In this document: positions 20,829-62,815 of the stretch, in pieces
Layout: every line of letters begins with the position of its first letter
Numbering within the stretch: position 1 is the stretch's first letter
Origin: Phlyctochytrium arcticum
Lineage: Eukaryota; Chytridiomycota; Chytridiomycetes; Chytridiales; Chytridiaceae
Reading direction: 5' to 3'
NCBI GenBank assembly: GCA_025602905.1
Contig: JAHLKI010000017.1
Location: forward strand, 649,195-713,194
DNA length: 64,000 bases
Notes under the pieces: generated by a model
What the model saw: the letters and a program-made list of their open reading frames with translations, nothing else
Databases searched by the model: none
What the model was told of the DNA's origin: nothing
Position numbers and translations under genes: made by a program

Positions 20829-20836
20829 AGAGATTT
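20829..20836. repeat. Target-site duplication, left (AGAGATTT)
   Basis: An 8-bp direct repeat identical to 28333-28340, immediately outside the terminal inverted repeat. A length of 8 bp is also typical of hAT and P superfamilies, but the transposase here is of the integrase-core type. Confidence 0.82.
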
Positions 20837-20862
20837 ATGGTGGTCACTTTGCCCAGAAAATA
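20837..20862 (+). repeat. Left terminal inverted repeat
   Basis: A 26-bp sequence ending in CACTTTGCCCAGAAAATA. It matches the reverse complement of 28307-28332 with two mismatches (T/G at positions 5 and 8). Confidence 0.87.
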
Positions 20863-20868
20863 CACAAA

Positions 20869-21074
20869 TGGCAAAGGTCAAGCGCGGCACACACAAGGTC
20901 TCCACAGCTGCTACAAAGGGTCCGTCGTTCAACACACACAATGCTCCCACCGACGCACACACAAGGTACTGGTTTTGCCGACAGGAGGGCCTACTTTCGG
21001 TACATATGAGTCATTTTCCAGTGGCAAAGGTCTCTTTGGGGATGGCAAAGGTCGCCTTCCCGATGGCAAAGGTC
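20869..21074 (+). repeat. Left subterminal repeats (TGGCAAAGGTC)
   Basis: Four exact copies of the 11-mer TGGCAAAGGTC at 20869, 21022, 21043 and 21064. The last three are spaced exactly 21 bp apart, two helical turns, as expected for transposase binding sites on one face of the DNA. Degenerate copies follow at about 21075 and 21106. The same word in reverse orientation occurs near the right end. Confidence 0.75.
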
Positions 21075-21360
21075 AAAGGTCGTCTGCTCGCAAAATGGCA
21101 ACGGTTCGGTAGGTGCACAACTCTCTCGTTTGTGGGTGAAAATATCTTTCCATCTTTAGTGGGCTGCTCAAAATTTGTCATACCATATCCGTTGGAAGGA
21201 ACGCCAGCTTGCATTTCCGGAGGTTTTTCAACACGCACGCAGTCCCATTCGAATCGAAAGCTCCTAAGGAAGTCCTGGAAGACATCAGGGTACCATCACC
21301 TCGTAAGCCCATTAGCATATCATCACCGTCACGGAGAGAAAGTGCCCAGAGCTTTCCGCG

Positions 21361-23336
21361 ATGAGTGACAGTGACCAAGAAGAGGACTTTCAATTGGAGG
21401 ACGAGTTTCACGATTTTGAGGACACCGATTTTGATCCTTCGACTCTACCACATATCTCGGAAGGAGAGCCACTTCCTTTTTACGACCTATTGAACGAAGT
21501 GGCGGAGGATATCGTAAAATGTGATTATGCAATGAGGCTCTGTGCTCCAAATGACGGCCATACTATCGTTCGATGTCACAGCAGCATCCGCTTAACCATG
21601 CGCGATATCATAAACATCATGATAAGGTAAAGGAAAGCGGAAACCCCTTTGCGACCAGAGCCTCACAGCGAACCTGTTCCTCGATGTAGATTTTCGGACT
21701 GTCAGCACCCTACTCTCTCTAATGATCCACGAGAGAAACGGCAGCAAGTCGTTCGTGAAATGGAAGGGTTGCTGCAGTATGCACAAAGGGTGTTTCAACA
21801 AGCAAAAAGCAGACTGGACGTATTAGTGGTTGCATACGAGTGCGGAACGGACGGCCAAGGGAATGCGTTTGATCATATGTCGACTATCCAGATCGGCCTC
21901 AGAAACAGCGGGCTCAAAGGGCGACCGAAATATATTCTGCCGACTACATGGATTTACACCCTTCTTCAGTTTGGATACACCCAGATCAACATAGCGGCAA
22001 AACTTCGCATCTCTCGCGAGACATTGAGGGTTCATTTGAGGGCAGAAGATTTGTTGCCCAAAGATCGCAAGGCATTCACGGACGATGAGTTGGAATGGAT
22101 TATTTACGGGTTGAGAACATTCATGGGCAATGCCGCAACAATGGGATCTATGTTCCTGCAAGGTACGGTAATTGCTCAGGCCCCATCCGATTCCTTTTCA
22201 AGTATTTACAATTAGTCACCAGGAGTCCTTCGGAGCCGCTTTGGGATCAAGCTCAGTATCAGGAAAATCAAGGAGATCTCCCGCAGAGTGGATCCGAGAG
22301 GGGCTCAATCTCGACTGCGGAGAGTCGTGAAGCGGAGAGTGTACCAAGTAAGTTGAATTAATAGCAATTTCGAATCTACAGCAATATTTGTGTTCGCCAA
22401 GCGTCGTTGCTGACCGGTCTATAGGTTGCAGGTCCTTTCAGCCTGTTTCACATTGACGGATGGCACAAACTGAAGGAATACCGGCTGGTGGTCCATGGCT
22501 GTATAGACGGTTATACACGTTACATCCTGTACATGATATGCGCTACCAACAACCCAGCCGATACGGTACTACAAATCTTTGTGAAGCATGTCTTGGATAC
22601 CTTCGGAATGTGTCCCAGCCGCGTCCGAGGAGACTACGGTGGGGAAAATAACGGGGTCGAGGATTTGATGATAGAACTGCGAGGCGTCGGGCGCGGATCC
22701 TTCATTCGTGGGGGCAGTTGCAACAACCAGAGGATTGAACGTACATGGGGAGATGTGAATGCAGCCGTGGGAGTTCAGTTTTACCGAACCTGTTTCTTTC
22801 TACAACAACATCGGGTGCTCAACCCGGATGATGAAGTGGACTTGTACTGCTTGCATACGGTGGGTTCTCGCCGTCTCAAGTTCTTATGGCTCGAGGTTGA
22901 TTCAAAAGCATCTGATATTTGTTCTACCTTTCCTCTATAGACATTTGTTCCTTACATCAATTATTCACTGAAGATGTTCGTCGATGGCTTTAATCAACAT
23001 TACAACAGGAAATTGCAGGGTAGACCAGACGATATCCTCAGGCGCTTTGTGGCGCAAAAAAAGGTGGACGCCGGTGGAGATATCGATATACACGCTGATG
23101 ACGATACCATTGCATTTGTGGACCCCGCCGCATTCGCATCCACCTTCGACCGACATGGGCAGCCTCATCTGGAATATGAGCCGGTCACGGAATTCTTACC
23201 GCAAGCGGTGAAAGAAACTCTGTTGACGGGGGTAGACCATCACCCATGGCAGTTGGGGGCCGACGAGCAGATGCGGACATACTGCAGATTCAGGGAGGCT
23301 GTACGAAACTATCTTCATGACAACTCCTCTCTGTAA
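21361..23336 (+). CDS. DDE transposase with integrase core domain and helix-turn-helix
   Basis: Five exons: 21361-21626, 21669-22167, 22216-22347, 22425-22859 and 22941-23336, giving 575 residues. The last four join through GT-AG introns into the widespread eukaryotic integrase-core transposase family: a helix-turn-helix-like region at about residues 190-225, a VDPRGAQSR motif, then the catalytic core. The acidic triad is visible as Asp310 in LFHIDGWHK, Asp369 in RVRGDYGGEN and Glu404 in NQRIERTWGDV. The 35-residue step between the last two is the classic DD35E spacing. The first 89 residues are acidic and unlike known domains. The first intron (42 nt) is the least certain junction. The protein is expected to bind the terminal and subterminal repeats and catalyse cut-and-paste transposition. 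All catalytic residues are intact, so it may be active. Confidence 0.86.
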
Positions 23337-23930
23337 ACACTGTCTTGAAGTAGGATGGTGAAGGCGGAACTTTGGAGGAGACTCGCGACTTCGTTTACTT
23401 AGAGTTTTCTGTAGTAGAACTGGACTTGCTGGTCTCCTTTGAGGATTCAACACCACCCCTCCGTGAAGTAGCGCAGGTTCAAGTTTGTGACAACTCGGCT
23501 CGTCAGTATCTTTATTACATTTTTGATTCACGCGTCGCGTACTAGTTCCTATTATTGGCTATTATTGGCTGTTGACCGTCCTTTACCTGAGGTAGTTAGC
23601 GGTAGCTTTTGTACCTAGCTACTCACTTTATATGACTCAAGTCTTCTGGACATCCCCTCCTACTCCTTTAGCATTACTTTACGCCTAGTACTTCATTCAA
23701 TAAATTATAGTTTTGCTCAACAACCCTGAACCAACGAGTCCTGTTATAAAGTTGCAGTGATAGACTCGAAAAAACGAGCTACGAGTCGTTATGTTTGGGA
23801 CATTTCACTACTAAGCTAATCAAAGGTGAACAGCTGAAAATGTCCAACCGTAACGCTCGATACTACGACCTTATTCAGCGTCGATTTTAAGTAAAGTCAA
23901 ACGATTCGCAGTAAGAAAGTATACCCTATA
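23337..23930. other. Non-coding interior of the transposon between its convergent genes
   Basis: This presumed 3' flank of the transposase gene has no ORF support. A short direct repeat (ATTATTGGCT) occurs at about 23551 and 23561. Confidence 0.45.
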
Positions 23931-23933
23931 CAT

Positions 23934-24167
23934 CAAACATCGGTCCAATAAAGAATACGCCTCTACGGCTAACAAGCATCAAATATCGGTCCAATAAAGA
24001 ATACGCTCTACAACTAACAAACATCAAATATCGGTTCAATAAAGAATACGCCTCTACGACTAACAAACATTAAATATCGGTCCCATAAAGAATACGCCTC
24101 AACGACTAACAAACATCAAATCTCGGTCCAATGGAGAGTACGCCTCTACGACTAAAAAGCACTATAT
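23934..24167. repeat. 46-bp minisatellite, about five imperfect copies
   Basis: A tandem unit of about 46 bp built on CATCAAATATCGGTCCAATA followed by AAGAATACGCCTCTACGACT and a short ACAAA tail. Copies differ by scattered substitutions and small indels. The array ends 17 bp before the stop codon of the HECT-like gene, so it lies between the two convergent transposon genes. Confidence 0.85.
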
Positions 24168-24183
24168 AATTACAAACAAGGGT

Positions 24184-27100
24184 TCACTTGGCGTTGAAGC
24201 TCAATACGCCCTGTTTCCCAAACCCCGTCATATACGCGTCCCAGCAGTTCAACAAGTCTGCGGGATTCTCGAAGTTGCGGCCCAGAATCAGACGTCGACT
24301 GCAGGTGTTGGTCTTTGGAGCATTCTCATCCCTCTTAGCCAACCGCTTCCCTTCATCGAATGCTTTGTTGACCGCATTGACACACTCCGCGTTGTCCATC
24401 CCTCCAGGGTATTGATCGACGATGTGAGCATACCTGTGAACCTTCGAACTTTCCTCCCATTGTAGCTCCAAGGCGGCCAACCGCAATTTCTTGTCTTCCC
24501 AAAAGACCCCAACCTTACCTTGGTAAGCGCGACTGCCACAGACCCATTGGAGGAAGTCCTCCACTTGGTCTTGGGTCCATTCATCACGAATGTGACTCCG
24601 GAGGGCTGTCTCAAACTCTTGTTGAAGAGGGAAGGGCGTCCTCGACGTAAAGTGCAGTGTGAAGTCGGCGAGATCCGCGGGGGTTGGTTTGTAGACTAGG
24701 AGTTGACTGATGGCGCCCTTTTCTTTGTCCAAGAAGTCGCGGACAGGTTGGAAGGACGACCAGAGCTGCATTCCCTCACTCATGGCCTTCAGGGCATGAC
24801 GGCGCGCCTGCTTCCATTTGTCCTCCAGAGCCCTCGGAAGGCGGTGGATCTCAAAATGAGTAGGTGCTTCGCGTAAAATGCTCATGATAGCAGACTTATG
24901 CGCGGAAGGTAGGTTAGTCCATGTTAAAGTGCCTCGACTGGATAGTATTTGGTGGATGTTGGGGTCCAGGAGAGACCAGTCGATAGTGCCGGTAGCATCG
25001 GTTGTTGCTAACATACATGTGCTCAAGAGGCACGGATTAAGCTTGAGCAGGTGGCTGTTATGAACCAAAGAAAAGACAAACAGCCATCCAATGAACTTGT
25101 AAATGCGTAGCTGAGCTTCTGTCGGGCCGTCAGGAACGAGATCGTAGGGAAAAGCGCACGGAATGAAGGTGTCGCCGTAAGTCTTCGAAAAAACACAGTC
25201 AATTGTGGTTGAACCTTCACGTATGACAGTAACCTTACCTTTTCAAACAACGGTAGCCCTTCCAGCGCCTTCGTGGTAAACTCTTCAAAAGTGGCGCCTA
25301 TTACCGACCGTGTCGGTCCCCCCGCATCCACGGCTTTGTACGCTGTCACCAAGGGAGTCACCCTGAGAGAGTACCGGGCTTCTGTTAGTCGAGAAGAAAC
25401 TTGAGAAGAATAAAAAAGGCGATAGTGTACCTGACAGTGCTCCCAGAGTACATGATTCCTGCAAGCTTGGGATCATCACCAATTTCAATGAACACCTGAC
25501 TGCAGAATGAGTCTGCAAGATCGGCGATGTCGTCGGCTAGTTTAACTGAAATTGATTGGGCTTTTCTGACACGAGCTGGTTTCAGGAGGTTCCGTTGCTC
25601 CTTGACGTCCACACAAATTCCGACAATGCGACCGAATTCGGTGCTGGTTCGGAACACCTCCGTTGCCTGTTCTTGATCGAGAAAGTCCCGGAGAACGATG
25701 TTTTCCGCTGGGACGAACGGTTGTAGCAATTCCTCATGGTCGTACAGGTCGTCTTCGCTGTTGCCCTCAACCGCACCGAAAGGGCTAAGGGAGATGAAAT
25801 GAGACGCGGTAGGTTCGAGAAAGTTGTTTGCTACCATGCCGCCAGCTTGGACGGAGTGGTCGATTTCAAGCATCCACGGACTGTCCGTGATGAGGTCCGC
25901 GTTGTGAAAGTCATCCGGAACTTGGGCTAGTTCCGGGATGAGTATGGGTTCCATAGTCTCGATCGGTTCATCGACTCTGCTGGATAGAGAGACATGGCGA
26001 CTGCGTGGGAAAGTGAATTCCCTGTCAATGACCGAGTCCGTGTCTGACGTGAAATTCGATGAGGTCCTCCGGTTTGTAATCATGGGGTAAGGTCTGGCGG
26101 GTGGTTGGGTGGACGAGGAAGGAAAATGGGGTGAACGAGAGCGGCGACTGGAAGTTGACAATCGGGAACTGCCAATGGGAGACTGCGACCGACGGGGCTC
26201 CCGACACAATTCCTCGTATCGGACTGCTAGAGCCCGAAGCTCCTCCCCGAAGTTCGGACTGATAAAGCCCAGGTACATCCTATAGATCGGCCAGTCTTCT
26301 TCCGTCTTCTGCCCACGTTGTAAGTTGGTGAATCGAGGAATGTGAGAGGCATTCCATGATTCTGATAAGGAGTCGATTATACTTCCACTAGGTAGGTAGT
26401 TGCAATCCTTGAGGCGCTGCGCCTGTGACTGGAAAATCACCAGGTTGCTCGTGTCGATGTACTGAAATTGGTACGGTAAGCCAATCAAAGTTGATGGACA
26501 TCATGATTCAGGATGGATCTTACCTGATACGCCAAATCTTGTGCTTCCCGCCGGAATCGCTGTGCCAAGGATCCCCCTTCCGAAAAAGCCTTTTCCATAT
26601 CATAGTCTTGCCTCAGTAGAGATGGCAAGTTATGCACGAAACCCAGCCTTAGTTTCATGACCATCTCGGCCATAATTTCCGAAGCGCTTGTTACCCGGGG
26701 TTTTATGGAAAAAGATGAGGTCTGCGATAACAGAGAGAGTCAATCAATGTTACAGGGCTAGCAAATACACACGCTCTGATGCCAAATTTGCTCACCGAGG
26801 CACGAAAGTTGAAACTATCTTGAATAGACCGCGGATGAGGATTTAAGAACACGGTTGCTTCAACTCCTACACCTATGGAATACATGTCTGATTTGAAATT
26901 GAATCGATTCAAAGAAGGGCTGCAGGTTCCATACCGGTGGGCTTTTCCACAGACTGCAATTTGGCCTTTTGGCGACTCCTCCTGGCTCCGCTGGCGGCCG
27001 TCGCAACGTCTTGTCTACGGATGAACGTGCTAGCCTTCTGGCTCGTACGGGGGACTCTTCCGGCAGCAGTTCGTTCTTCGATGGGGGTGGGAATGCTGAC

Positions 27101-27736
27101 ATCCAAAGGAGGTAGATTGAAACCGGGATTTGTGGAGAAAATTTGTCCAGCCGACCTTAGAGCAGAGTTGTTGTGTCCGAAGACCCTCGTTTGTGCGTTG
27201 TCTATGGCGGCGACGTATGCGGGTGTAGCGGTGATCGTTGACGTTGCAGTGATGGAGCCGACATGATTGATATTCTGGAGGTTGCTGGAACTTGAAGTTG
27301 GCAGTGCGAGCCCAGGTGATCCGACCATTGTGCCAACTCCAGGAGTAATGGTCCTCTCAATGAGTATCTTGGTCATGGTTTGTAGACCTGCGGTAAGGGA
27401 GAAGATGAAATGGTATCAGGCAAGGTAGAAACTACTTGAAATAGAGGTATTAAGTGCTGCTCTACCTGCGACTTGCTTGGTAAACATTTCATCCAAAGGC
27501 ATAAGCTTTCCTTGAGAGTCAGAAGCGTAAACTCTCCACTCTGCCTTGTTAATGCTGTTCAGCATACGCTTGCTGAATTCTGCCATGAGTGCATAGCAGA
27601 GATGGTGGGCTGATTGCCATGTCTGGGGTGACTGTTCCCAGTTGTTAATGATGGTGTTGTTTGCACGGACCTCCACCGGGAGAGGGGCATTAAGTAACAG
27701 GGGTTGGTTGCAGGGAAGGGCATTGGGGACTTCCAT
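24184..27736 (-). CDS. HECT-like E3 ubiquitin ligase carried by the transposon
   Basis: Seven exons on the minus strand: 27736-27466, 27387-26935, 26872-26796, 26721-26524, 26461-25431, 25362-25239 and 25182-24184, all phase-consistent, giving 1050 residues. Residues from about 680 to the end resemble a divergent HECT domain. A VDAGGPTRSV segment aligns with the GG-x-REF region, and FIGWLFVFSLVHNSHLLKL with the GRLLGLAL helix. WTQDQVEDFLQWVCGS matches the F-L-x-F-V-T-G-S block, and NTCSRRLIL retains the T-C catalytic cysteine (about residue 1012), ending in TGFG. HECT enzymes carry ubiquitin on that cysteine. The N-terminal 680 residues are Ser/Pro-rich and unrecognised. The gene lies wholly inside the terminal inverted repeats and converges on the transposase. 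The HECT call rests on motif resemblance by eye. An activity on host or transposase proteins is inference. Confidence 0.75.
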
Positions 27737-28306
27737 AAGTGCTACTGATGCTGACCCTAATCAGGATGGGAAGTTACTGGTTTGAATCTTGAAAGGTTTT
27801 CGACCAAACGACGGACGGACACGTTTGACTGGAATTTCTAGGTAGATCCGCTACTCCGACTCCGACTCACCGGTTAACCACAAAATTAACCACAAAAATG
27901 AAATTTTTGCCACGGTCGGTACCTCGGTACCTTTGCCACATTACCTCGGTACCTTTGCCACGGAGGGTGTTTGAGGGTGTGGGGTTTGAGGGTGTGGGGT
28001 TTGAGGATACCTTTGACAGACGAGCGGAGCTTGTGGCGCATTTCTGCCGTAATCGTTGTCACATGACCTGCCAAGACCTGCCACTCTTTCAAACCTGGCT
28101 GATCCAGCTTTGCCTCCAAAATCCAACCCTTGTTAAAAACCTGGTGCTCTGCCATAATATGCACTCCAGAGCGCCAAATGACCACTAGCTTGTGCCGTTT
28201 GTTGAGAACGGCTTTGCCAAATGTGAATTACATAATAAAAGCTTGTGTGTGCGCAGAAAACAAGCTTGTCCATCCTGAAAATCACGTTGCTCATGCCAGA
28301 AAAAGC
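27737..28306. other. Right subterminal region of the transposon
   Basis: This non-coding region holds ACCTTTGCCA at 27929-27938 and 27951-27960, the reverse complement of the left-end repeat, with a variant ACCTTTGACA near 28008. A GGTTTGAGGGTGTGG-type tandem (about three copies) lies at 27965-28005. The promoter of the HECT-like gene must lie here. Confidence 0.6.
27929..27960 (-). repeat. Right subterminal repeats (TGGCAAAGGT, minus strand)
   Basis: Two exact copies 22 bp apart of the word repeated at the left end, here in inverted orientation, each within a GGTACCTTTGCCAC context. Confidence 0.72.
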
Positions 28307-28332
28307 TATTTTCTGGGCAAAGTGCCCCCCAT
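28307..28332 (-). repeat. Right terminal inverted repeat
   Basis: Reverse complement of the left terminal repeat, 24 of 26 positions identical. Confidence 0.87.
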
Positions 28333-28340
28333 AGAGATTT
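28333..28340. repeat. Target-site duplication, right (AGAGATTT)
   Basis: Identical to 20829-20836 and immediately outside the right terminal inverted repeat. Confidence 0.82.
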
Positions 28341-41162: not shown

Positions 41163-43221
41163 CTACGCCAAACGGACACAGTTGTATGGAAAGAACCCCG
41201 TAGCGTTGGTAGTATCATTTGAACCCTGAGCCCAACCATCTGCGTAAACCTCCCTATTGATAAGAAAACGATGAATTAGACAAAACGTGATGGCATAGGT
41301 GCAAACATGTAACTTTACATGACACTGACGACATCTCCTGGAGAAATCATAAACTCGTCGCCCGTGATCAGCTCTTGGCGGCCGCCGGGTCGGAATGGGA
41401 CGATTCCGACGTGGGGATACCCAGTCTTGTCGCCCTGGGAAAATCTCGAATCGGTAGGCCGAATCTCAGGGTTACTGCTTTTTTCGGGGCTGGTCGGGAT
41501 AGAGCGAGTGGCGGTAGGATGCGCAGCAGCTGCTGGTACGGCAGACGATGATGAGCCCGCGGTAGGTGCAGAAGTAGACAGGGTATTGTAGGAGGGAGGG
41601 AGGTCGCCAATCGGGTCGGTGTCAAATATATTTACGACGACCCGGTCCTGAGTGCGAGTGGGAGGGACAAATGTGGCGAGGTTTGAGTCGTGGTGATCGA
41701 TAGCCATGCTGTGATGTTGGACCGGGATGTCGTTATACATTTTTTGTTGGGGTACGGGAGTCTGAGTGTGAGGCTCGATATTCAGCGTAGCGGTACTATC
41801 GACGCGAAGTGGCGAATCGCTGGGGGACGTGGCAGTTGATGTCTTTCCAGCCTCTATCACGTCAACATCGGCATCACTCTGCTGGCATTTCAGAGCAGAG
41901 TTGCGGCGCCATCGCAGTAGCAGCAGTACAAGACCAGCAAGGAACATGACCCCGGCGGCCGCAATTCCGCCAATCACGCCGCCCGACAATCCCGAGCTCG
42001 TTGGTGGTGGCGGCTGCACTGGCCTCCCTCCACCTCCTATGTTTTCTTCGAGTAGTTGAGCTTTACTGGATACCCATTTCCCCGATTGGATATTGAAAAA
42101 ATATAGGGACGAATCTGACGCGGTAGAGAGTCCTGCCCCGAATTCGAGTCCTGGACTTATAATCAGATGATTCCCCACCCCCACCATTTGGCCAAAATGA
42201 TGAGCGCGTGGCTGTCCGTCATCAAATCGAGTAGAGTCGGCAACCTCTTGATTCCATAACTTGGTGTTGGGATCAAAAGACCAAATGTCGTTGAATGCGC
42301 GAGTTTCGCTTTGCCCGCCAAAGGCCCATACTTTGCCTTGAAAGAATGTACATGCTGCGCTGTGACGGGGCGGGGGGTAGGTTCCGGGTCGAGGTACAGC
42401 GGTCCATCCGGAGCCTGCAGTGTAGATCCAAGAATCATCGTGTTGATAGACTGTGCGGTTAAAGTTACTCCTGCCGCCAAAGATGAAAAAGGAGGTATTG
42501 TTGATGCGAACCATGCAAGGCCAATAGCGATCGTATGGTGGCCAAGGTTCCGTTGCCACTGGCGTAATGACGTTTACAATGGGAGGCGACATTTTCAGAT
42601 CTATGGTCCAAACCGATTCTCCCTTAAACACGTACTTCCTAGAATAACAGCACAAAGGAACCAAGAATTGATCGTGTTGGAGTTCTGAGCTTTAATTCCA
42701 ATATCAATGGTCCCAGTGCCCCCTGTCCAATCTTGTAAAGCAGCCAGCGAGAAAGTAGTGACTTCGAGGACACTTGAGGAAGACCGACCGGGTTTGAGTC
42801 CTCCAGCACATACAACTATTGGTGTACCCTCCCAGCGTGCACAGGCGTCAAGGTACTTAGTGGCAAGCTCATCGCCTATGATGGTTAAATCAAATGAGTT
42901 CCAATCATCGAAGGGAACGACACTGGCGGTTTTGGGCGCAGAGGGTATCGTCGGTCAAGTGCACCGGAACTATTGATGCATTGAAGTCAGTACCCAAGTA
43001 CCCAGGGTAGCATCTCAAAGATATTGACCCGACTCCGCTCCCCCTTCATATTTGGCGCCGCCCATAACGACCAGTCTATTATTGAGCAGAAACATCTCAT
43101 GGTCGTGACGGGGAATAGTCATGTTGACATTGATAGCCTGAACGACAGAGGGAGCCCAAAGCGCTGCAGCCAGTGTGAGGAGAAGCGTTCGCCATCCTGG
43201 GATGAGTGTGTAGGACGACAT
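41163..43221 (-). pseudogene. Kelch-TM-SH3 receptor-like gene, copy 1 (frameshifted)
   Basis: Same layout as the intact copy at 44324. Exon 1 (43221-43029) encodes a signal peptide and the conserved AINVNMTIPRHDHEMFLL start. The body is 42969-41319 and the final exon 41253-41163 encodes the C-terminal SH3 half with the end FFPYNCVRLA. Compared with copies 2 and 3 the body has an extra A near 42930, and near 42645 a small deletion with a second frame change, which removes the kelch core after AVILGS. The first donor is GTCAAT instead of GTAAA. The remaining 449-codon frame, with kelch repeats, a transmembrane helix and a Ser/Pro-rich tail, is intact. Either a decaying gene or two sequencing errors. 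Confidence 0.72.
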
Positions 43222-44323
43222 TGCGAAACCAGATCTTGTAGCTTTCCGGATCCGTCACCATCCGTGCTTCGTTCCTCGGAGCCTTGGACGGCTCAAAAAG
43301 CTCAGCCACGAGCCCCCAAAGGAAAAAAAATCTTGTTGACACTCATTTCGACAGCGAGCTTCGCTAATATGTTGAGTTAGACGGATCAGAATCTCAGATT
43401 TGTAGCTGCTGTCTGGTGCTTTCTGGTGGAAATGGCACGATCTCGAATGCGTTCGGAGGCTCCGGTGGGACGGAGCTTGAACGCGTGAACATTCGCGTCA
43501 ACGTCAAATAATTTAGAATGCCATCTCCGATAATCTCTCCAGATTTACCACAATCTCTCAAGGAATCAACGTTGACGCCAGGGTAGGATGAGGATGCGCA
43601 AGACATATCATGCACGGCGGTGTCCATGTGGGATCCAGTACTGCTGTGGATCACTGGATATCCGATACTGGTTGCCCTGCCGGCCGTCGCCCGAGACGTT
43701 CCCCGCCTCAAGAGCGTTTGGCATAGTGTGTCCAAATCGGAATCGGGCAAAGCGAGTCAAATTTTGTAAGAAGCGGAGGACATTACTGATCCAAACTGGG
43801 GTCTCTGGAGGAATACAGCCTACGCAACTTTAGGAAGAGTTTGGAGCCGTGCTCCATGTATTCTATTGTACCTCGCAATCTGACATTACCTTCGGGGGTG
43901 GATTGGACATTGCGACGTGCTTTGGGGATCGGTCCCTTGTAATCATCTTTGAGGTTGTGATGGGTACTCGTGGTAAAGTTCAATTGGCGCGGCCGAGGTG
44001 CTTTCGAGCAAGTGAAAACGGATTGCTTCCCCCAAGCCGCTCATATGTACCAGGGAGCGGATGACGAAGTGACACCACAATTCAATGATTTGAACGATGA
44101 CAAGACTGATATGTTGGAGAGAAGCCCGTGCTAACGCTAAGAGAGGGGGTAAGGGCTCAGACCTCCAGATCACTTGTGCTTTCGCAGTGTGTCAGGATGA
44201 GGACGATGTATAATTTTTCGTCCACACCTGGAGCGGGGTCGTATACTCTATCGTACCGAAAACCTAACTTTCTAATTCTAGACTAAAGAACATAAATCCC
44301 GCCTAATTCAAACTAAGTATTTC
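43222..44323. other. Intergenic between kelch copies 1 and 2; contains a duplicated upstream block
   Basis: Positions about 43386-43640 (minus strand) contain a block that recurs at about 46664-46880 on the plus strand, including a 22-bp identical core around GTGCATGATATGTCTTGC. In both places it lies 5' of kelch-gene sequence in that orientation. The rest shows nothing I can name. Confidence 0.55.
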
Positions 44324-46439
44324 CTACGACATCCGAACGCAATTATACGGAAAGAATCCAGTGGTATGAGTCGTCTCGTTCGTGCCATGCGCCCACCCGT
44401 CCGCATATACTTCCCTATTCATCAAAAAAAGTCAGAATGAAAAATCAAAAATGTCAAAATGGTGGGAAATACGTACTCGACGTGGACTATATCACCGACG
44501 GAAATCATGATTTCGTCGCCCGACACGAGTTCGTGGTGGCCGCCGGGGCGGAAGGGGACGGTTCCTATATGGGGTATACCCGATTTTGATGGATCCAAGG
44601 ATGATTTTTCGGGACTAGCCAATGAGCCAACTGCGATGGCCGATCTCGTTGTGGGTGAGGGCGTGGGTAGGGTATTATACGACGGAGGAACATCGACTGT
44701 ATCAAAATGATTGACGGTGAGTTGTTCTTGGAACCTTATTGGGGGAATAAATGTGAAATCTTTGGATAGGGGTGATGCTGCTACAGGCACGGGGTTGTCG
44801 CTATGGGATGTGGGGTGGTATACAATGGTATTTCCCGACGAGGAGGCGGGGCGGTGAATGGACATGTCGTTGCTATTTTCTGTATCTTGAAGTGATGAGG
44901 AAGGGACGTGGGTGTACCGGGTTTGGGGACCGATTCCGAACGCGTTGATGGGAGATTCGGGTGTAGAGTACCGTGTTGAAGTGCTGTCGGGACGGATGGG
45001 GCGATCGTGACTGAGATCGGCTGTCGTCTGCTTGGCAGCAGATTGCATCTCGTCGTCATTTTGCCGATGTTTCAAAGTTGATGATTCTTGGCGGGACCGG
45101 CGCCAGCGTAAGAGTAGGAGTAACAGCCCCACAATGAAGACGGCTACAGCGGCAACGATTCCCCCAATAACGCCCCCGGATAGTTTGGAATTGGGAGTGA
45201 GAGGCCACTTGCTTCCACCCTGATCAGTCGATGTATCATCGCTAGGCGAGATGTTTTGTAGTTGGGCTTTGCTCGGCACCCATTCCCGCGACGCGGTATT
45301 GAAAAAATACAGGGACGTATCCGTCGATATACTAAACATCGGTTCCAGTCCAGGACTCAAAATCAGGTGCGTTCCCACCCCAACCATCTTTGCATAATGT
45401 AATGGCCGCGGCTGCCCATCGTCCAGTCGCGTCGAATGCGCAAATTCTTGGGTCCAGGACATGGTTTTGGGGTCAAAGGACCAGAGATCGTTAAAAGATC
45501 CGGAGGCATTTTCGCCGCCAAATGTGTAGACTTTGTTATTTAGGAACGTGCACGCGGGGCCGTTGCGGGGTGGGGGGTACGTGTCGGCTCGGGGGACGGG
45601 CGTCCATCCGGATCCGACAGTATATATCCACGAATCTTGGAGATGGACCGTCCCGTTATTGACCGTTTTGCCACCATAGATGAAGAAAGAGTTGGGGTCC
45701 AGACGGACCATACAAAAGTCGGCACGGTTGAGGGGCCATGGCTGCGTTGCTGGGTTAGGTGTTATGGCTTTTGCGACGGGTGGAGAAGTGTTCAAATCCA
45801 GGGTCCATAGTTCTCCTGGGCCTGAGACAACCCCTTTGCCCGTCGACCCGCCAAACATGTAATAAACACTGCCAAGTATCACGGCACTGTGGTCCCATCG
45901 ATGAACCAACGACGAGTGATTTTCAGATTTGAGACCCACATCGATAGTCCCGGGGCCCCCTGGCCAAGTTTGGAATGCTGATAGCGAAAACGTCGAGATT
46001 TCGAGGTTGGGGAGTGGAGCCCGACCGGGTTTGAATCCGCCGGTACAGACGACCACCAGTGTCGCATCCCACCTTGCGCAAGCGGCAACATGGGTGGTTA
46101 ACCGTTCGCCATTCACGATTTTGGTATCAAACGAGTTCCATTCATTGAAAGGGACAACGCTGGCGGTTTGGAAATTGAGGGTATCACTTGCAAACGTATC
46201 TGGATCTAAATACAAATCGTCAGTTCATGTATGGTCGCATTTAACAACCTAAATGCTCGTTGTTCTTTACCCGATCCAGGTGTTCCATAGAGTTTGGCCC
46301 CGCCCATGACGACCAACTTGTTGTTGAGGAGAAAGACTTCATGATGGTGTCGGCCCAGGGTCATATTGACATTGATGGCCTCGACTCCAGCAGCCGCCAG
46401 GGTGATCAATAGACCGAGCACGGTTCGCCATCTTGACAT
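44324..46439 (-). CDS. Kelch-repeat, single-pass membrane protein with cytoplasmic SH3 domain, copy 2 (intact)
   Basis: Three exons: 46439-46271, 46205-44477 and 44414-44324, giving 662 residues. It starts with a cleavable signal peptide (about residues 1-22) followed by INVNMTLGRHHHE. The extracellular part holds kelch-type blades, each with a YMFGG, FIYGG or YTFGG strand plus conserved DLWSFDP or SWIYT turns. A glycine-led membrane helix (GGVIGGIVAAVAVFIVG) at about residue 390 is followed by an RWRR stop-transfer. A Ser/Pro-rich cytoplasmic tail of about 190 residues follows. The C terminus, completed only by splicing, reads ELVSGDEIMISVGDIVHV, EVYADGWAHG and GFFPYNCVRM: an SH3 domain. It thus looks like a type I surface receptor or adhesion protein that recruits proline-rich partners. 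Ligand and pathway are unknown. It is the only member of the cluster without frameshifts. Confidence 0.83.
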
Positions 46440-46663
46440 TGTGAATGGTCTGGAATCGGGGTGGACAAAGTGAAAGATTGTGTGATGCTTTGCTTGCCCC
46501 CGACAACAACGGTGGCGAGAGCAACAAGTTGCATTTTGTTTGGGGCATCAGATATTGCGGTATTTTTTTGGAAAGAGGGCTGACTGATCTTCAGCCCGCG
46601 TTATGCCACAACAACTCTCCAGCACCTCATCCAAAATATCTCCAGGGCAGTGCTGGTTACCCC

Positions 46664-47272
46664 ATGGCCGACGCCGTGCATGATATGTCTTGCGGCTCAT
46701 CCTATCCTGGTGTCGATGCTGCTTATACCAGATTGTGGTCGAACTGGGGAGATGGGGATCATGGCATTTCGAAATTTGAGGCTGTCAGTGTCACAGCGTT
46801 GACACGCGCCGCCTCAAAACTCCGCTCCTCCGAAGGCATACGAAATCTACCATTTTCACCAGAAAACAGCACCAATCCCGAATGCCATCTCACTCAGGCA
46901 TGGCATTTGCTTCTGCCAAAATGAATGTTCGATAAGATTTAGTGGCTGACGCGAGCGCAACGATCGTGAAAGCTAAAATGTTTGACGGGATTTGCCAATG
47001 CCGTCCGGGGAGGACGAATGCTCCTCCTCACACGGACTGCAGCAGCGGCTTGGGCCCCGTCTACCGCTCAAGTCATCAATGTCAATATGACTGTTGCCCG
47101 GCACCACCATGAGATGTGGGGCACCAAAAGACGGTAAAGATGACCTTTGAGCTGGGAACCGATATAAAGTACTTACTTACTAGGAGATATGATTCAAGTC
47201 AGGTAAAAAAAGCTCTCCTCCTATCTTCACCACTTTCCGGTCCAACTTATCAACATATAGGGAGGTGTAAAC
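46664..47272 (+). pseudogene. Inverted, internally deleted relic of a kelch-TM-SH3 gene
   Basis: Reads on the strand opposite to the three kelch genes. About 46664-46980 matches 5' flanks of copies 1 and 3 (for example ACGCGAGCGCAACGA and AAAGC-AAAAT, shared with the region just above 49797). About 47029-47113 encodes LLLTRTAAAAWAPST and INVNMTVARHHHEM, the signal peptide and mature start. It then jumps to ACCAAAAGACGGTAAAGATG, the exon 1/intron 1 border of copy 3. By about 47182 it has reached GGAGATATGATTCAAGTCAG plus the last intron and the GGAGGTGTA start of the final exon. The whole body (about 1.8 kb) is missing. Non-functional. Confidence 0.75.
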
Positions 47273-47646
47273 AGGTTAGCGTTGGGAAAAGACGCGCTCT
47301 TTTCTGGTCCCAAAGTGTTCAATGCAAAACGTTTCTTGAATCTTCCTATACTCTAATGTTTTTTTTTGTATACTAAGAACTAAGAACACCCAAAAAAAAC
47401 GGTGAGAGCTACGCAAAGAGAAAAATATCCCCGACAATGTTCAGTTTGGCATCAGCGTAGCGTGAACATGAAAAATATCAACATGTGGAGAAAAAATTCC
47501 CACGGGGCAAAAGCATCAGATATACCGAACCAACTTGCCGTGATTTCCAACCCAAACTTTATGTATGTGTGTAAAGCGATACCCTTCAGTTCAAATATAT
47601 CTTGACCGTGTCGTTACTTTTTGGGGAGGTTATCTCAGATCATGCT
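47273..47646. other. Intergenic
   Basis: A/T-rich sequence between the relic and copy 3; nothing recognised. Confidence 0.45.
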
Positions 47647-49797
47647 TTAGGCCAACCGGACACAATTGTAAGGAAAGAACCCGGCAGTGTGGGTCGTTTC
47701 ATTCACACCCTGAGCCCATCCCTCTGTGTACACCTCCCTATATGTTGATACAGTTAGACAGGAAGATGGAAATAGTGGTGAGAACTTTTACCTGACTTGA
47801 ACTATATCCCCCGGTGAAATCGTAATCTCGTCGCCCGAGACTAGTTCTTGGGGTTGGAACAGGATGGTTCCGACGTGGGGAATGCCAACCTTGTCGCCAT
47901 GGGAGCATTTCGTATCTGGGATGTCAGGATTATTGGTTTTAGGATGCGCTGGTAAGGCAGACGATGATGATGAGCCTACGACAGTTACAGAAGTGGGCAG
48001 AGTGTTGTAGGAGGGAGGAGGGAAATCGGTGTCAAACATATTGACAATGATCCGGTCTTGAGTGCGAGTGGGAGGGACAAATGTGAATTCTTTGGCGAAG
48101 GGGGGTAATCCGGTTGGGGTATCCTTTATAAATTCGGGGCGGTATGCGTTATCATGTTGTGAGGTTGAGTTGCGGGTATCCTCTTCCGCTGGACCGATAC
48201 CCATGCTGTAAGTTCGGACTGGGATGCTGTTATACATTGCTTGCTGGGATATCGGGGTGTGGGAGGGTACTTGACTATAAGGATTGTGGCCAAGTATCCC
48301 CGAGTCGCGGGTGGGAGTTTGTGGGTCAATATTCAGCGTAGCGGTACTATCGGGGCGGAATGGGGAATTGCTGGGGGATGTAGCAACTGGTGTCTTTCCA
48401 ACCGATATCACGTCAATATCCGGATCACTCTGCTGACTCGAGTTGCGAAGCCGGCGTAGGAGCAGCAGTACCAGACCAGCCATAAATACGATCCCAGCAG
48501 CCGCAATCCCGCCAATCACGCCGCCCGACAATCCCGAGCTCGTTGGCGGTGGTGGCGGCTGGGGTGGCCCCCCTCCACCTTCTATGTTTTGTAGTTGAGC
48601 TTTACTGGGTACCCATTGCCCGGACTGGACATTGAAAAAATACAGCGACGAATCGGACGATAGATCGAATGTAGGTTCAAGCCCCGGACTAACAATCAGA
48701 TGATTTCCGACCCCGACCATTTACAAAAATGAACAGCGCGTGGCTGCCCGTCTTCCAGGCGAGTCGAGTCGGCCGTCTCTTGCTTCCATAACAGGGTGGT
48801 GGGATCAAAAGACCACATGTCGTTGAAGGAGCGAACATCGTTTTCCCCGCCAAAGGCCCATAATTTGCCTTGAAAAAATGTGCAGGCTGCACCATTGCGA
48901 GGCGTGGGGTGAGTTCCGACTCGAAGCGCAAAAGTCCACCCGGATCCTTCAGTATAAATCCAAGAATCTTCTTGGTAGTAGTATGTGGCGTTATACAAGC
49001 CCTTGCCGCCAAAGAGAAAAAAGGAGGTCCTGTTGAGGCGAACCATGCAACAGTAGGCGCGTCCGAGCGGCCAGGGTTGCGTTCCCACGGGGGTAATGGC
49101 CTTTGCAATGGGAGGCGACGTGTTTAGATCTAAGGTCCATAACTCCCCAGGGCCCATCTGGATGTCCAGCCCAACTGATCTTCCGAACATGTAATACGTA
49201 CTTCCTAGAATAACAGCACTATGATCCCACCGATGAGCGACATTGGAGAGGTTCTGAGATTTGATGCCAATGTCGATGTCGATGGTTGTCCCGGAGGCCC
49301 CTTTGTAATCTTGTAATGCAGTCAACGAGAACGTAGTGATTTCGAGGGCGGGCAGCTGTGGACGGCGGGGTTTGTGTCCACCCGTACACACGACTATAGA
49401 TGTGCCTTCCCAGCGTGCACAGCCAGCAACGTACATGCCGAAAGTGTCACCGCCCAAGATGGTTACATCGAAAGAGTTCCAATCATCAAACGGGACAATA
49501 CTGGCGGTTTTGGCGTTGAGGGTATCGGTGGCGAAAATCACTGGATCTATATTTGCAAGTTAGATTTCTATCTAGGTTCCCAGCTCAAAGACCATCTTTA
49601 CCGTCTTTTGGTCCCCCATAACGTTTGGCCCCGCCCATGACGACCAGTCTTTTTTGGAGCAGAAACATCTCATGGAGATGGCGGGGAACAGTCATATTGA
49701 CATTGATGGCATGTACGGCAGACGGAGCACAAAACCTTACTGCAACCAGTGTGAGGAGGAGCATTCGCCATCCTGGGATGGGTGGGCAGAACGACAT
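47647..49797 (-). pseudogene. Kelch-TM-SH3 receptor-like gene, copy 3 (one frameshift)
   Basis: Exon 1 (49797-49602) starts at the ATG that aligns with the other copies and gives a signal peptide and AINVNMTVPRHLHEMFLL. Exon 2 (49546-47792) encodes kelch blades, the membrane helix GGVIGGIAAAGIVFMAG and the tail. Exon 3 (47737-47647) completes the SH3 domain (EVYTEGWAQG, FFPYNCVRLA). Around 48722-48730 the frame breaks: copies 1 and 2 read HHFGQMVGVG or HYAKMVGVG, whereas here one base is missing, so the frame runs into CKWSGSE and a stop while MVGVGNHL continues in another frame. With one base restored the gene would be full length. Recent pseudogene or sequence error. Confidence 0.72.
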
Positions 49798-51543: not shown

Positions 51544-52517
51544 TCCTCCCCAGAGGTACACGGCGATTGCGCAGCACGCGCACGGGGGCCTCAACGGCAG
51601 TGGTCGCAGTGGTGTCAGCGGGGTTGTCAGCTGGGTTGTCGGCGGGGGTGTCAGTGGCAAGGGTAACGGGCAGGCGTCGGGTCCTCTGCAAGTAGTCCGC
51701 AAAATCAGCGAGCGCTGCCTGGTTCCCACGTGTCATCGGTCGCGGAATACCCAGCCCATCTGATGCGGTACTCGTCGCGGCTCTTCTTGGCATTCCATCT
51801 GTGGTCCAGAATATCCTCTACCGCCCAAACTGTATGACCTTCCTCGTCTAACTCCGGGAAAGAACCTGGGAAACGGTCTTCGGGTCCTTCGTAACCCTTC
51901 ACCAGCGATACATCAAACTTTGGGCAAATCCTCCAATGAGTAGGCAGTTCCAGGTACACTGTTCGTCCGGTATGCTCTTTCACGACGAAAGGTCCAGCCC
52001 ACTTGTCCTTCAGCTTGTCAACGTTTTGATACTTAAACTTGAGATTTCTGGTGCTTAAAAGGACGCGGCTACCCGGCTTGTACGTTGTCGGCGTCCGCTT
52101 GCCGGTGTTTGCGGTTAACACCTGATCGACCTTGGCGATCCGCGTGGCGTCTTCCGCGTCTTTGCGGAGCGAATCAAGGTTTTGGAGCCAAGCGTCTGCA
52201 TCCTTGGAGCCCGATGATGGTGTTGGCAATCGAGGGAGTATTGTCGGAACGAATCCTATGGTCAAAGCGAATGGACTGTGTCCCGTCGTTCGCGAAACGG
52301 ACGCATTGCACCGAAATTCCAAAAGGGGAAGGGCATCTAACCATTTTTCGTGACTTCCGTCAATCGCAGCCCTCATGCCTTCATTGAGGTCCCAATGCCG
52401 ACGTTCTACCTGACCATCCACGTTTGGACGAAAAGCCGTGGTACGCCTTAGTTTCACTGGCAGTGCAGCCATAACGGCTTCCCAGAACTGCGCAGTAAAC
52501 TTTGAATCGCGATCACT
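51544..52517 (-). pseudogene. Old Ty3/gypsy pol remnant: integrase C terminus and chromodomain
   Basis: The minus strand encodes the integrase catalytic end (FRPNVDGQVERRHWDL with the catalytic Glu), GPY/F-like region (FVVKEHTGRTVYLELP) and chromodomain (DEYRIRWAGYSATDDTWEP). A frameshift at about 51707-51790 separates this from the terminal VLRNRRVPLGRM. It is clearly related to the intact element but diverged. It is interrupted at 52513-52517 by the insertion of that element. The upstream part resumes beyond 58968. Confidence 0.85.
52513..52517. repeat. Target-site duplication of the young Ty3 element (TCACT)
   Basis: Identical to 58968-58972. The 5-bp length is normal for Ty3/gypsy integrase. 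Confidence 0.88.
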
Positions 52518-52743
52518 TGTAGGAGAGTGATGAAGCGTGGCTTCCAGCGCGGGATCAATTAGACTTAGATCGTACAGTTGTGTTACGCGAGTTTTTTGGG
52601 CGGGATCAGATAGAACCTGTCGGAGATTCAGAACTTAGAACGTTAGGTCGATTGTATAGAACCCCTATACATTAACGCTTGAATAAACTACTCTAAACAG
52701 TCAGTTGTTAGTTGCATTCAAGTTCGTAGTCTCGGCTACTACA
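52518..52743 (+). repeat. 5' LTR
   Basis: 226 bp, TG...CA ends, nearly identical to 58744-58967. A T-run (9 T) follows directly; I could not identify the primer-binding site. Confidence 0.92.
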
Positions 52744-52980
52744 TTTTTTTTGACTCAAGAGTAACCCGGGAGCGGAAGGAGGACTAGCTACCCTTCGGAT
52801 ACTTCTGGAAGAGACCGGTAGCCTGAAGTTACCAGTTGGGGACGCCCGGCTTTGTGGAGTGTATTGAAGGACCAGATCTATTATTCAGTGACAAGAGAAC
52901 CAGCTTTGGAAGTCCTTTGGAAATCAGCATTGCAACAGAGATCACCATACCTATTTCTTCGTTTGTTTATACTCGTCAAG

Positions 52981-55900
52981 ATGGTTCCGGTTCAGCATTC
53001 ACCTATCCAAAGACCTACCCCCCTTCAAGGCAACGCACGGGCAACCCTAGGAAATACTGCTCCTCCGGCTGCTATGTCGAGAGTACGTATTGCCTCTACT
53101 CCTTCCCAGGATCGTGAGGACTCGGTCTTTGAGGGACTCAGTCAGGATCTTCTTGGATTGGGTCTTGGGGACAGCCAAGGGCATTTTGGAGACATGGATA
53201 TGACTCAGGACACTATCAGAGGTTTAGGGAATGGACAGGCAGTGGCGGAAATTGCTGATGAAGAGACAACGGCTATGGATCGGGAGCTGGAGCGACGACA
53301 GCAGGAGTTGTATCGTTTGCGTAGCTTGGCTGAAGTGAAGCGAGCCAAGCGCCTGAAGTTGGCGGAACTGGAACGGCAGATTGAAGCTGCACGCTCGGAC
53401 CTGGAGTCTTTGGACGTGGACGAGCCAGGACGTTCTGATGGAGAAAGTTCCCACGTGCCGACAATGACTGCGCAGCGCCAATTCCGCAACCCCTTTGAGA
53501 CCCCGGTAGCTGGCAGTCGAATGCCTCCTCCCGATACTCGTCAATTCACGCGTGGATCGGCCACAACGACAAACCCTTTCACTCTTCAACACCCAGCATC
53601 TAGTGGCATACTTGTTGACAAGCTCGAAGATGTTAAACGGGAGAAGCTGATGAGAAAGCTTCAGCTGATTCGCGAAGGCGTAGTTCCTGAGATCCGTTTT
53701 AAAGGCAAAGTCGGTGAAACTGACAGACGGGCATTGATGGATTTCGAGGCTGAAGTTCGCCGAGCTTTCGAAGAACAGGAAGTCGATCTTGGTGATATGG
53801 ATCCACGTTTCCAGCGGTTGTTACTTCTTTTGGTAAAGTACTTCTTACACCCGGATGGGAAGGCCTATGAGATGTATCAACAGCGCATCAACAGTTGGAA
53901 GACGTATGATGACTTCCTGGAGGAACTCTATTTGCGATTCTTGAGGCCGAATTCAGATGCGGCAGTTATTGCAGAGTGGGAAGCGTCGATTCAGGGTTCA
54001 AAAAGCTTTCTGGAGTGGAAAGCCGAGTTGGACAAGTTATGGGAAACGGTCGGTGCCCACATGGACCGCCATATCTACATGACGAAGTTGAAAGAAAAGG
54101 CACACCTGGACGTTATCAGCAAAGTAGGCGCCCGTTTGCACCGCCTCACTGAAGTTGAATTGGTGGACGAAATGGGTCTGGAAGACCAGTTCCGGATTGC
54201 GCAGCGGAAGGAGAAGGGAACGCGCGGCGCAGTGTCTGCTCCCACAACCACTGGAAACGTGCATGTTCCCCGGGAACAGTATAATCAGATGCGCGAAAAG
54301 TGGCGCGCTGAGATGAAGAAGGAGGGGAAGGGTAGTTCGGAGTCGCAGAAATCTCTGGGATCGGCAGGGGGTTCTTCTTCGACATCTTCCTCAGGTCAAG
54401 CATCTAGTTCTGTCCGCTCTTCACGAAAGGTGGAGACTCCGGAAGAATACGCCAAGCGGGTTGCCGGCCTCACTTGTTTCAAGTGTAACAAGAAGGGACA
54501 TATTTCAACTAATTGCCCGAATGGAGCTCGGGTGAACGCGACGTTGGTGCGTAGGCCCGAAATGGAACCAAGTCCGGACGCGGATGGTTCGGCTGTAGGA
54601 TTACAGCGATCGCAAGTAGATGGGGAGGGTCAGCCCGAGGGCGGTCCTTCACCAGCGGCTCGTTTTGTTCAGGGAGGACGGAGCTACGCTGACGTAGTAA
54701 CGGCTTGGAACGACGGGCGACGGCGAGTCAAGCCAGAGAAGACTGGCCTGCAGGAGGAAGGAGTAAAGATAGGACCGCCTTTGCCCCCTCCTCCAAGTAC
54801 TGGGATTCCGACAAGTGCCTCTGTCGCGATTCCTAAAAAAACTTTGAAGAAAGCACCGCAGGATAGGCAACCGCGGGCTGCTGACAAGAAAGGAACAAGT
54901 TCGAAGCCTTCCGAGTGGAAGGGTGTCGTGGGTAATCCCAACTCGATTGGGAATGTATACTCGATAGTAGCAAAGGTGGGCGGCGCGGAAGCTGTCCTAC
55001 TGGTGGACTCGGGGGCCAATGTGCAGATGCTGGACACGCGATTTGTAAAACTTCATCGCTTCAGCCAGACCGAGCATGGCCAGCGCCGAAAGATTGCTAC
55101 CGGATTCAAAGGATCTTACGGGACTTCAGCGGCCGGAACTGTGCAGGTTGTTGAGGTGAATGATCGGTCAGATCGCGTCTATTTTGAAGTTGGAGCGATT
55201 GACGGATTTGATGGGATCTTGGGGACGGAGTGGCTGGAAGCAGTCGGCGCGCAGCAATGTTGGGCCACGGACAAACTGATTGTCGGCGGTACCATTACGG
55301 AACGCGCGCAGAAGAGCAAAACTATTCGCGCGATCACCGCTACAGTCGCGACAGATGAGAATGCATTGTCTGATCCGCCAGTAATCGATCCTACGCGCAC
55401 CATCGTTATCTCAGAGTCGGAGCCCGCTATGTTTCCGGCCTGGGCATCAGCACTGGAGGAATTGGAGAAGCCCGGTTCCGCTCTTACGGTTGAGCAGGCA
55501 CGAGGAATTGTGAGTCGTTTCGGGGAGGAAATTGGAGTTATCCGACCCGACAAAACGTTACCTCCGGGATTACCTCCTCTTCGAAAGGGGATGAACCATA
55601 CGTTTGTCATGAAGCAAGATGCGCCACCTTTACCTAAACGTGCGATTCGCTACCCGGTCAAGTACGAAGCGCAGATGCGAGAGAAAGAGGCGAAATACGT
55701 CAGTGATGGTCGATGGTATCGGTCGTCGGACCCGGAGGCCGTTCCAACCTTCGTGGTTCCCAAGGGTGATATTTCGAAGGCTCGGATGGTGTTTGACGAA
55801 CGGGCGCGGAATCAGCAGAAGGAACTAGTTCGGTATACCTTGCCCCACACCGACGGTATTCGTGATGCAGTTCAGGAAGCCGATTTCGCCAGCCAATTCG

Positions 55901-57378
55901 ATCAGATTAGTGCTTATGAGCAGTTTCGCGTCGACCCGGATTGTGAAAAGTATACGGTCTTTCTCACACCTTCCGGTCAATTCCGTTCGCGAGTTCTGTC
56001 TATGGGCGATACGAACGGCGTTGCCAATTTTCAAAGGGCTTCAGAAAGTACGGCTGGGCCTAAACTGGGAAGAAGCATTCGCGTTTACTTGGACAATTTC
56101 CTGGTTACCACAAAGGGGACTCTTCTTGAACATGCCTCGGAGTGTCTGTGGCTGTTAGCGCGCTTTAAGGAGTGCGAGTGGTACATTGGATCCTATGAAT
56201 TTTGTCCTGCGAAGATGGAGGTTCTGGGAAGTCTGATTGGGAATGGTGTTCGTCTTCCCGGCACGAAGGTCATTGATACTGTTTTGGATGTGCCCACGCC
56301 AACCTCAATCGAACAGGTCGATCGCATGCTAGGTGCGTTCCAGTTTGTGGCGGAACATTCGTTGGACTCTGTTGCGGAAAGATCGCTTCTGGCCGACGTG
56401 GTGAAACACCGTAAGGTGAAAGGACGGAAGGCGGCGACCCGACCACCCCCCTTCAACAACAATGGGAAGTTTCTATGGACTCCAACCCATCAAGCTGCCT
56501 GGGACCGAATCAAGAATGAGATGTCCCGGTGCATGAAACTGCGCAGTTTTGACGTTAATGATCCCTCTCTTCGCACATACCTGATAACCGACGCTAGTAT
56601 CGTTGGAATTGCTGGTTATCTCGCCCAAGGTCTGAAGTCGGGTACGTGGAAAGACGCATGGCCTATCCGCTGCTGGTCTCGCTCCTATGTCGCCGGGGAA
56701 CGGAATTATACCACAACGCAACAGGAAAAGTTAGCAGTGGTTGAGTCCTTGTCCCACTATGAGCATTTCTTGCGGGGAGTAGAGTTCACTATCTGCACCG
56801 ACCACGAAGCATTGATTCCCCAAGGACGCGGGACTTCGGCCCCTCTTTCTGATCGACAGGATGCACGCTGGAGTTTGTCTCTCGCGTCGTTTGCACCTAC
56901 TTGGCAACATGTCGCTGGCGAAGATAATGTGCTGGCGGATACCCTTTCTCGCTTGTGGGATGACCATCGCGTTGTTGATGATATGGCGCAGCCTTCGGCA
57001 GACGAGGACGATGTCGATGTTTGGAGATGGAACGCCTTTTCCGGGGCGGGGGAGCAGGATATCCCACGGGCTATAGACGGCGCTCGGGTGATGGCATGCT
57101 CGGCCACTGCTCCTGAAGCCGACTTCCAAGATCTCTCATTGCGTGAACGGCTAAATTCTACATTCGGAGATGGCTTTGATGTCGCCCTTATTAAGGCAAT
57201 CAAGGAGGATGCTCGCTGGGGAGCCGTTTGGGCGGAACCTGGGTTACATTCTGGAATTTCCGTGGTAGATGATCTCCTTCTATTTGAAGACACGCGGCTG
57301 GTGATTCCCGCCTCGTTGACTTGGACTGGCACCCCGGCTCGGGATGGCACATTCGGAATTAGTTCATGTTGGTGCTGA
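52981..57378 (+). CDS. Ty3/gypsy Gag-Pol (gag, protease, reverse transcriptase, RNase H)
   Basis: About 1465 residues from the first ATG in the frame. Gag has a coiled-coil start and a capsid-like helical region. It is followed by a CCHC zinc knuckle CFKCNKKGHISTNC (about residue 499). The aspartic protease has LLVDSGANV (about 676). The RT domain runs to the catalytic YLDN at about 1036, where the usual second Asp of Y-x-D-D is Asn. RNase H includes LITDASIVG and TDHEALIP. The frame ends with a stop at 57376-57378, in the middle of the integrase zinc-binding region, where the next ORF takes over in the -1 frame. The usual GHLGI-type histidine is absent at this point. Either a disabling frameshift or a recoding site with no obvious slippery heptamer. 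Confidence 0.9.
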   Translation: MVPVQHSPIQRPTPLQGNARATLGNTAPPAAMSRVRIASTPSQDREDSVFEGLSQDLLGLGLGDSQGHFGDMDMTQDTIRGLGNGQAVAEIADEETTAMDRELERRQQELYRLRSLAEVKRAKRLKLAELERQIEAARSDLESLDVDEPGRSDGESSHVPTMTAQRQFRNPFETPVAGSRMPPPDTRQFTRGSATTTNPFTLQHPASSGILVDKLEDVKREKLMRKLQLIREGVVPEIRFKGKVGETDRRALMDFEAEVRRAFEEQEVDLGDMDPRFQRLLLLLVKYFLHPDGKAYEMYQQRINSWKTYDDFLEELYLRFLRPNSDAAVIAEWEASIQGSKSFLEWKAELDKLWETVGAHMDRHIYMTKLKEKAHLDVISKVGARLHRLTEVELVDEMGLEDQFRIAQRKEKGTRGAVSAPTTTGNVHVPREQYNQMREKWRAEMKKEGKGSSESQKSLGSAGGSSSTSSSGQASSSVRSSRKVETPEEYAKRVAGLTCFKCNKKGHISTNCPNGARVNATLVRRPEMEPSPDADGSAVGLQRSQVDGEGQPEGGPSPAARFVQGGRSYADVVTAWNDGRRRVKPEKTGLQEEGVKIGPPLPPPPSTGIPTSASVAIPKKTLKKAPQDRQPRAADKKGTSSKPSEWKGVVGNPNSIGNVYSIVAKVGGAEAVLLVDSGANVQMLDTRFVKLHRFSQTEHGQRRKIATGFKGSYGTSAAGTVQVVEVNDRSDRVYFEVGAIDGFDGILGTEWLEAVGAQQCWATDKLIVGGTITERAQKSKTIRAITATVATDENALSDPPVIDPTRTIVISESEPAMFPAWASALEELEKPGSALTVEQARGIVSRFGEEIGVIRPDKTLPPGLPPLRKGMNHTFVMKQDAPPLPKRAIRYPVKYEAQMREKEAKYVSDGRWYRSSDPEAVPTFVVPKGDISKARMVFDERARNQQKELVRYTLPHTDGIRDAVQEADFASQFDQISAYEQFRVDPDCEKYTVFLTPSGQFRSRVLSMGDTNGVANFQRASESTAGPKLGRSIRVYLDNFLVTTKGTLLEHASECLWLLARFKECEWYIGSYEFCPAKMEVLGSLIGNGVRLPGTKVIDTVLDVPTPTSIEQVDRMLGAFQFVAEHSLDSVAERSLLADVVKHRKVKGRKAATRPPPFNNNGKFLWTPTHQAAWDRIKNEMSRCMKLRSFDVNDPSLRTYLITDASIVGIAGYLAQGLKSGTWKDAWPIRCWSRSYVAGERNYTTTQQEKLAVVESLSHYEHFLRGVEFTICTDHEALIPQGRGTSAPLSDRQDARWSLSLASFAPTWQHVAGEDNVLADTLSRLWDDHRVVDDMAQPSADEDDVDVWRWNAFSGAGEQDIPRAIDGARVMACSATAPEADFQDLSLRERLNSTFGDGFDVALIKAIKEDARWGAVWAEPGLHSGISVVDDLLLFEDTRLVIPASLTWTGTPARDGTFGISSCWC

Positions 57379-62746: not shown

Positions 62747-62815
62747 AATTGTGTTATTGAATGTTTAGTAACTTTCCTTCTTTAAACAAGAGTTTTATTT
62801 CTTTAAATAACAATT

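Follow-up and report, generated by a model that had tools for sequence, protein, structure and literature searches.

Introduction

IS3EU DNA transposons are characterized by TA..TA termini and a target site duplication of usually 6 bp (PMC10045372). The IS3EU elements described from rust fungi have TAYGG..CCRTA ends, inverted repeats longer than 30 bp, and a 6-bp duplication; an alpha-kinase gene faces the transposase gene in them, and a TET/JBP gene lies between the two (PMC12730594). Here, we examine a 7,498-bp element in a 64,000-nucleotide stretch of DNA (the window) from the chytrid Phlyctochytrium arcticum (GCA_025602905.1, contig JAHLKI010000017.1, positions 649,195 to 713,194, forward strand). 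It is probably an autonomous IS3EU cut-and-paste transposon that has, as a fixed component, a second gene most likely encoding a divergent HECT-type ubiquitin ligase. IS3EU itself is already known; for the second gene, no prior report was found in the open-access literature searched. Within PubMed Central (PMC) open-access articles, we found no report of IS3EU together with HECT, with subscription papers and Repbase entries lying outside the search, and no relevant report, judged by title, of HECT with a transposon. The element had been proposed by a model from the letters of the window (the original prediction).

A complete IS3EU-type transposon

The element and its parts are as follows (window coordinates).

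20830..20835, no strand: left target site duplication GAGATT, in the 6-bp reading
20836..28333, no strand: complete IS3EU-type transposon with TATGG..CCATA ends
20836..20862, + strand: 27-bp left terminal inverted repeat, identical to the right repeat at 25 positions
20869..21105, + strand: left subterminal repeats, four exact TGGCAAAGGT and one with one mismatch, all +
21361..23336, + strand: transposase gene, 564 residues, five exons (21361-21626, 21690-22162, 22223-22347, 22425-22859, 22941-23336)
23930..24155, no strand: tandem repeat of a 46-bp unit (4.9 copies), separating the 3' ends of the transposase gene and the second gene
24184..27736, - strand: second gene, 1,050 residues, seven exons (27736-27466, 27387-26935, 26872-26796, 26721-26524, 26461-25431, 25362-25239, 25182-24184)
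27929..28018, - strand: right subterminal repeats, two exact TGGCAAAGGT and one with one mismatch, all -
28307..28333, - strand: right terminal inverted repeat, 27 bp
28334..28339, no strand: right target site duplication GAGATT, in the 6-bp reading

The two genes are convergent, spliced with GT-AG introns, and open. As predicted, 26-bp inverted repeats match at 24 positions, or at 25 of 27 with the outermost T/A included. All six exact occurrences of TGGCAAAGGT in the window lie inside the element ends, four on the + strand at the left and two on the - strand at the right. Allowing up to one mismatch, the window holds 20 occurrences (eight in the element ends) versus 4.73 expected, and none of 100 shuffles reached at least 20. 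This arrangement, together with five genomic copies, upholds the original prediction of a complete DNA transposon with direct and inverted repeats, subterminal repeats, and two spliced genes inside. Since the element is present in five copies, a chance or one-off structure is excluded.

The original prediction had found no named superfamily for the element. We place it in IS3EU because its TATGG..CCATA ends and probable 6-bp GAGATT duplication match published fungal IS3EU, the ends conforming to the TAYGG..CCRTA pattern; this putative assignment is drawn from termini and duplication. The transposase adds the integrase-type DDE core characteristic of IS3EU: it matches rva_4 (PF24764, E 3.2e-53) over a core at residues 286-457, with D299, D358, and E393 present. 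The predicted intact-looking integrase core thus stands, although 34 residues separate D358 and E393, giving D-D-34-E and not D-D-35-E. Pfam reports no integrase zinc-finger domain in the transposase, a feature shared with IS3EU/GingerRoot (Repbase; PMC10045372) along with TA..TA termini, a probable 6-bp duplication, and an integrase-like DDE transposase. A HECT-type second gene, as proposed for the chytrid element, is not mentioned for IS3EU/GingerRoot in the passages of that account consulted. With the rust elements, the chytrid element shares the form of the ends, a second gene opposite to the transposase, and probably the 6-bp duplication (PMC12730594). The inverted repeats are 27 bp rather than more than 30 bp, however, and Pfam finds neither an alpha-kinase nor a TET domain.

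Three relatives share 32-39% identity with the transposase, each of them a protein without a name or listed as hypothetical, and a scan of viral contigs with the transposase core alignment returned none. Among 86 stretches from general genome contigs, one relative appeared, an rva_4-like piece with 47% identity on L074. This 4.2-kb contig is assigned to the genome of a Cycloclasticus sponge symbiont and is probably host DNA within the symbiont assembly. Its list of open reading frames (ORFs), inspected by eye without a domain search, revealed no HECT-like neighbor and a retroelement-like ORF in its place.

Copies in the genome

We searched the 31.5-Mb genome of this saprotrophic fungus, in which the window lies on contig C17, with the element ends and both proteins. 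Left-end matches occur at six places and right-end matches at four. The transposase and the second gene were found at the same five places: C17 (window), C20, C14, C3, and C4. Relative to the window copy, blastn identity over aligned positions is approximately 99% for C20, 98% for C14, 89-90% for C3, and 91% for C4. The sixth place, on C39, retains 171 bp of the left end and nothing more of the element.

Both genes are open in the window copy and in C20. At C14 the transposase is open and the second gene has one premature stop, at codon 87, while the genes of C3 and C4 are broken; similarity in C4 ends at about 27123, which truncates the second gene and leaves the right end missing. Across the copies, 18 of the 20 introns of the transposase gene and 29 of the 30 in the second gene have GT-AG borders, and the transposase is under purifying selection. 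In the presumed mechanism, the DDE transposase would bind both the terminal inverted repeats and the subterminal TGGCAAAGGT repeats, excise the element, and join it to a target via 6-bp staggered cuts, possibly to this day.

Is the second protein a HECT ubiquitin ligase?

The product of the second gene differs at four residues from a P. arcticum hypothetical protein of 1,050 residues (P0001). Protein database searches returned that protein alone, with no relative outside P. arcticum, and the viral contigs scanned contained none.

On balance, we lean towards a HECT ubiquitin ligase, an identity that is suggestive at the level of motifs. VDAGGPTR begins at residue 688, and the candidate catalytic Cys1012, in a TC context, lies 39 residues from the C-terminus, where HECT enzymes are expected to carry their cysteine about 30-40 residues from the end. 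As a reference, we used six host HECTs from the PF00632 loci of the genome. The pattern [VML]D.GG..[RK] is present in five of the six and is followed by TC in four, at a spacing of 293-311, similar to the 324 of the second protein. A motif pair with such spacing arose in 1 of 200,000 shuffles, the pattern having been chosen post hoc, after the protein had been inspected. Cys1012 is kept in four of the five copies and replaced by Ser in the decayed C3. When the profile of the host HECTs was cut into six slices, the VDAGG-to-GYK slice was reached by 9 of 600 shuffles and the cysteine tail by 23 of 600, in the correct order; in negative controls, 206/300 and 243/300 shuffles reached the score.

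Other results weigh against this identity. Searched with the final exon or with the C-terminal 483 residues, PF00632 gave no match up to E 10; in the genome it identifies the six host HECT loci, and none of its 18 matches lies in the element copies. No Pfam family matched the second protein, and a PDB sequence search returned no HECT up to E 10. Compared with the alignment of the six host HECTs, the second protein scored E 0.15 with hhalign, a score reached by 38/160 and 77/300 column shuffles. End to end, its profile score had a z of 1.9 (reached by 35 of 1,000 shuffles) versus 25 to 59 for the host HECTs left out singly, with three other stretches at -0.7 to 0.4. The four remaining slices were reached by 92, 158, 442, and 134 of 600 shuffles, the middle part (442/600) not fitting. 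The predicted HECT-like character is therefore retained in its VDAGG/TC motif spacing, but no family model recognizes the protein.

The same non-significant Pfam, PDB, and profile results, and the absence of PF00632 from every element copy, favor an alternative in which the transposon is the same IS3EU element and its second gene encodes another fold whose HECT-like motifs arose by chance, for instance a protein that binds DNA or regulates the transposase as its partner. We regard this as the less likely reading, though a serious one, as it does not account for the VDAGGPTR-TC spacing close to that of four host HECTs, the position of the cysteine, or the two rarely reached slices in the right order. 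If the second protein is a divergent HECT-type ligase, it may promote transposition through ubiquitin tags placed on the transposase or on a host protein; possible targets include the transposase itself and repair or silencing proteins. We propose only tentatively that this IS3EU lineage encodes its own HECT ligase, selected for aiding transposition or escape from silencing and steering host protein turnover.

The TET/JBP and alpha-kinase genes of rust IS3EU suggest that DNA transposons come equipped to counteract control by the host. If confirmed, a ubiquitin ligase kept by selection would add protein turnover to this accessory toolkit, and copies with both genes open in one cultured chytrid offer a testable system.

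The second gene as a constant part of the transposon

Whatever its fold, the second gene is part of the element and not a passenger, as had been proposed, because it is present at all five transposase places, was found nowhere else in the genome, and is under purifying selection across divergent copies. All 40 of its genomic matches lie within the five element places; neither a stand-alone second gene nor a transposase copy without it under other termini was seen in this genome. A stand-alone host gene is thus ruled out there. The C3 copy is a mosaic relative to the window, with the transposase half at approximately 96% and the second-gene half at approximately 89%. Its second gene and right end diverged together, which argues for an old link of the gene to the right terminus. 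A host gene caught between the element ends, with no role in transposition, would leave these observations unexplained and is very unlikely, even though the lack of protein relatives found outside P. arcticum counts in its favor.

Target site duplication

The window copy is flanked by identical AGAGATTT at 20829-20836 and 28333-28340, the predicted 8-bp direct repeat. The repeat itself stands, and a 6-bp duplication is the better reading. The base preceding ATGG is T in six of six left ends, and this T is therefore part of the element, which speaks against an 8-bp duplication. In the older C3 copy, the flanking match is AGCAGTG, 7 bp at most, and stops where the constant T begins. Under TATGG..CCATA ends, the duplications are GAGATT in the window and GCAGTG in C3, and the 8-bp repeat is probably a 6-bp duplication with one chance match per side.

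Three observations run counter to this reading. Seven letters match in the window and C3 alike, so these two copies are compatible with a 7-bp duplication. The outer right A is replaced by C in C14, being present in three of four two-ended copies. Flank comparison found no duplication around C20 and C14, the youngest relatives of the window copy; this absence may stem from recombination among copies or from errors in the assembly. An empty site was not found with the left flank, the only one searched, its 301 bp matching itself alone in the genome. The least credible alternative, suggested by the identity of AGAGATTT across 8 bp, is that an integrase-like transposase and 8-bp duplications define a new superfamily here, given the shorter C3 match ending at the constant T and termini that are those published for IS3EU.

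Other features of the window

Elsewhere in the window, a retrotransposon-like pol lies at 52822-58748 (+), its first ORF matching RT_RNaseH, RT_RNaseH_2, a zinc knuckle, and, weakly, RVT_1 in Pfam; the next ORF, at 57363-58748 (+), is integrase-like by eye. At 51705-52634 (-) there is a similar, partial ORF. At 60263-62764 (-), an 833-residue ORF contains a D5_N primase-helicase domain (E 3.5e-10), of a type often encountered in mobile elements and large DNA viruses. Similar ORFs resembling kelch-repeat membrane proteins by eye form a tandem family at 41315-49559 (-); the one tested matched Kelch with E 3.5e-29.
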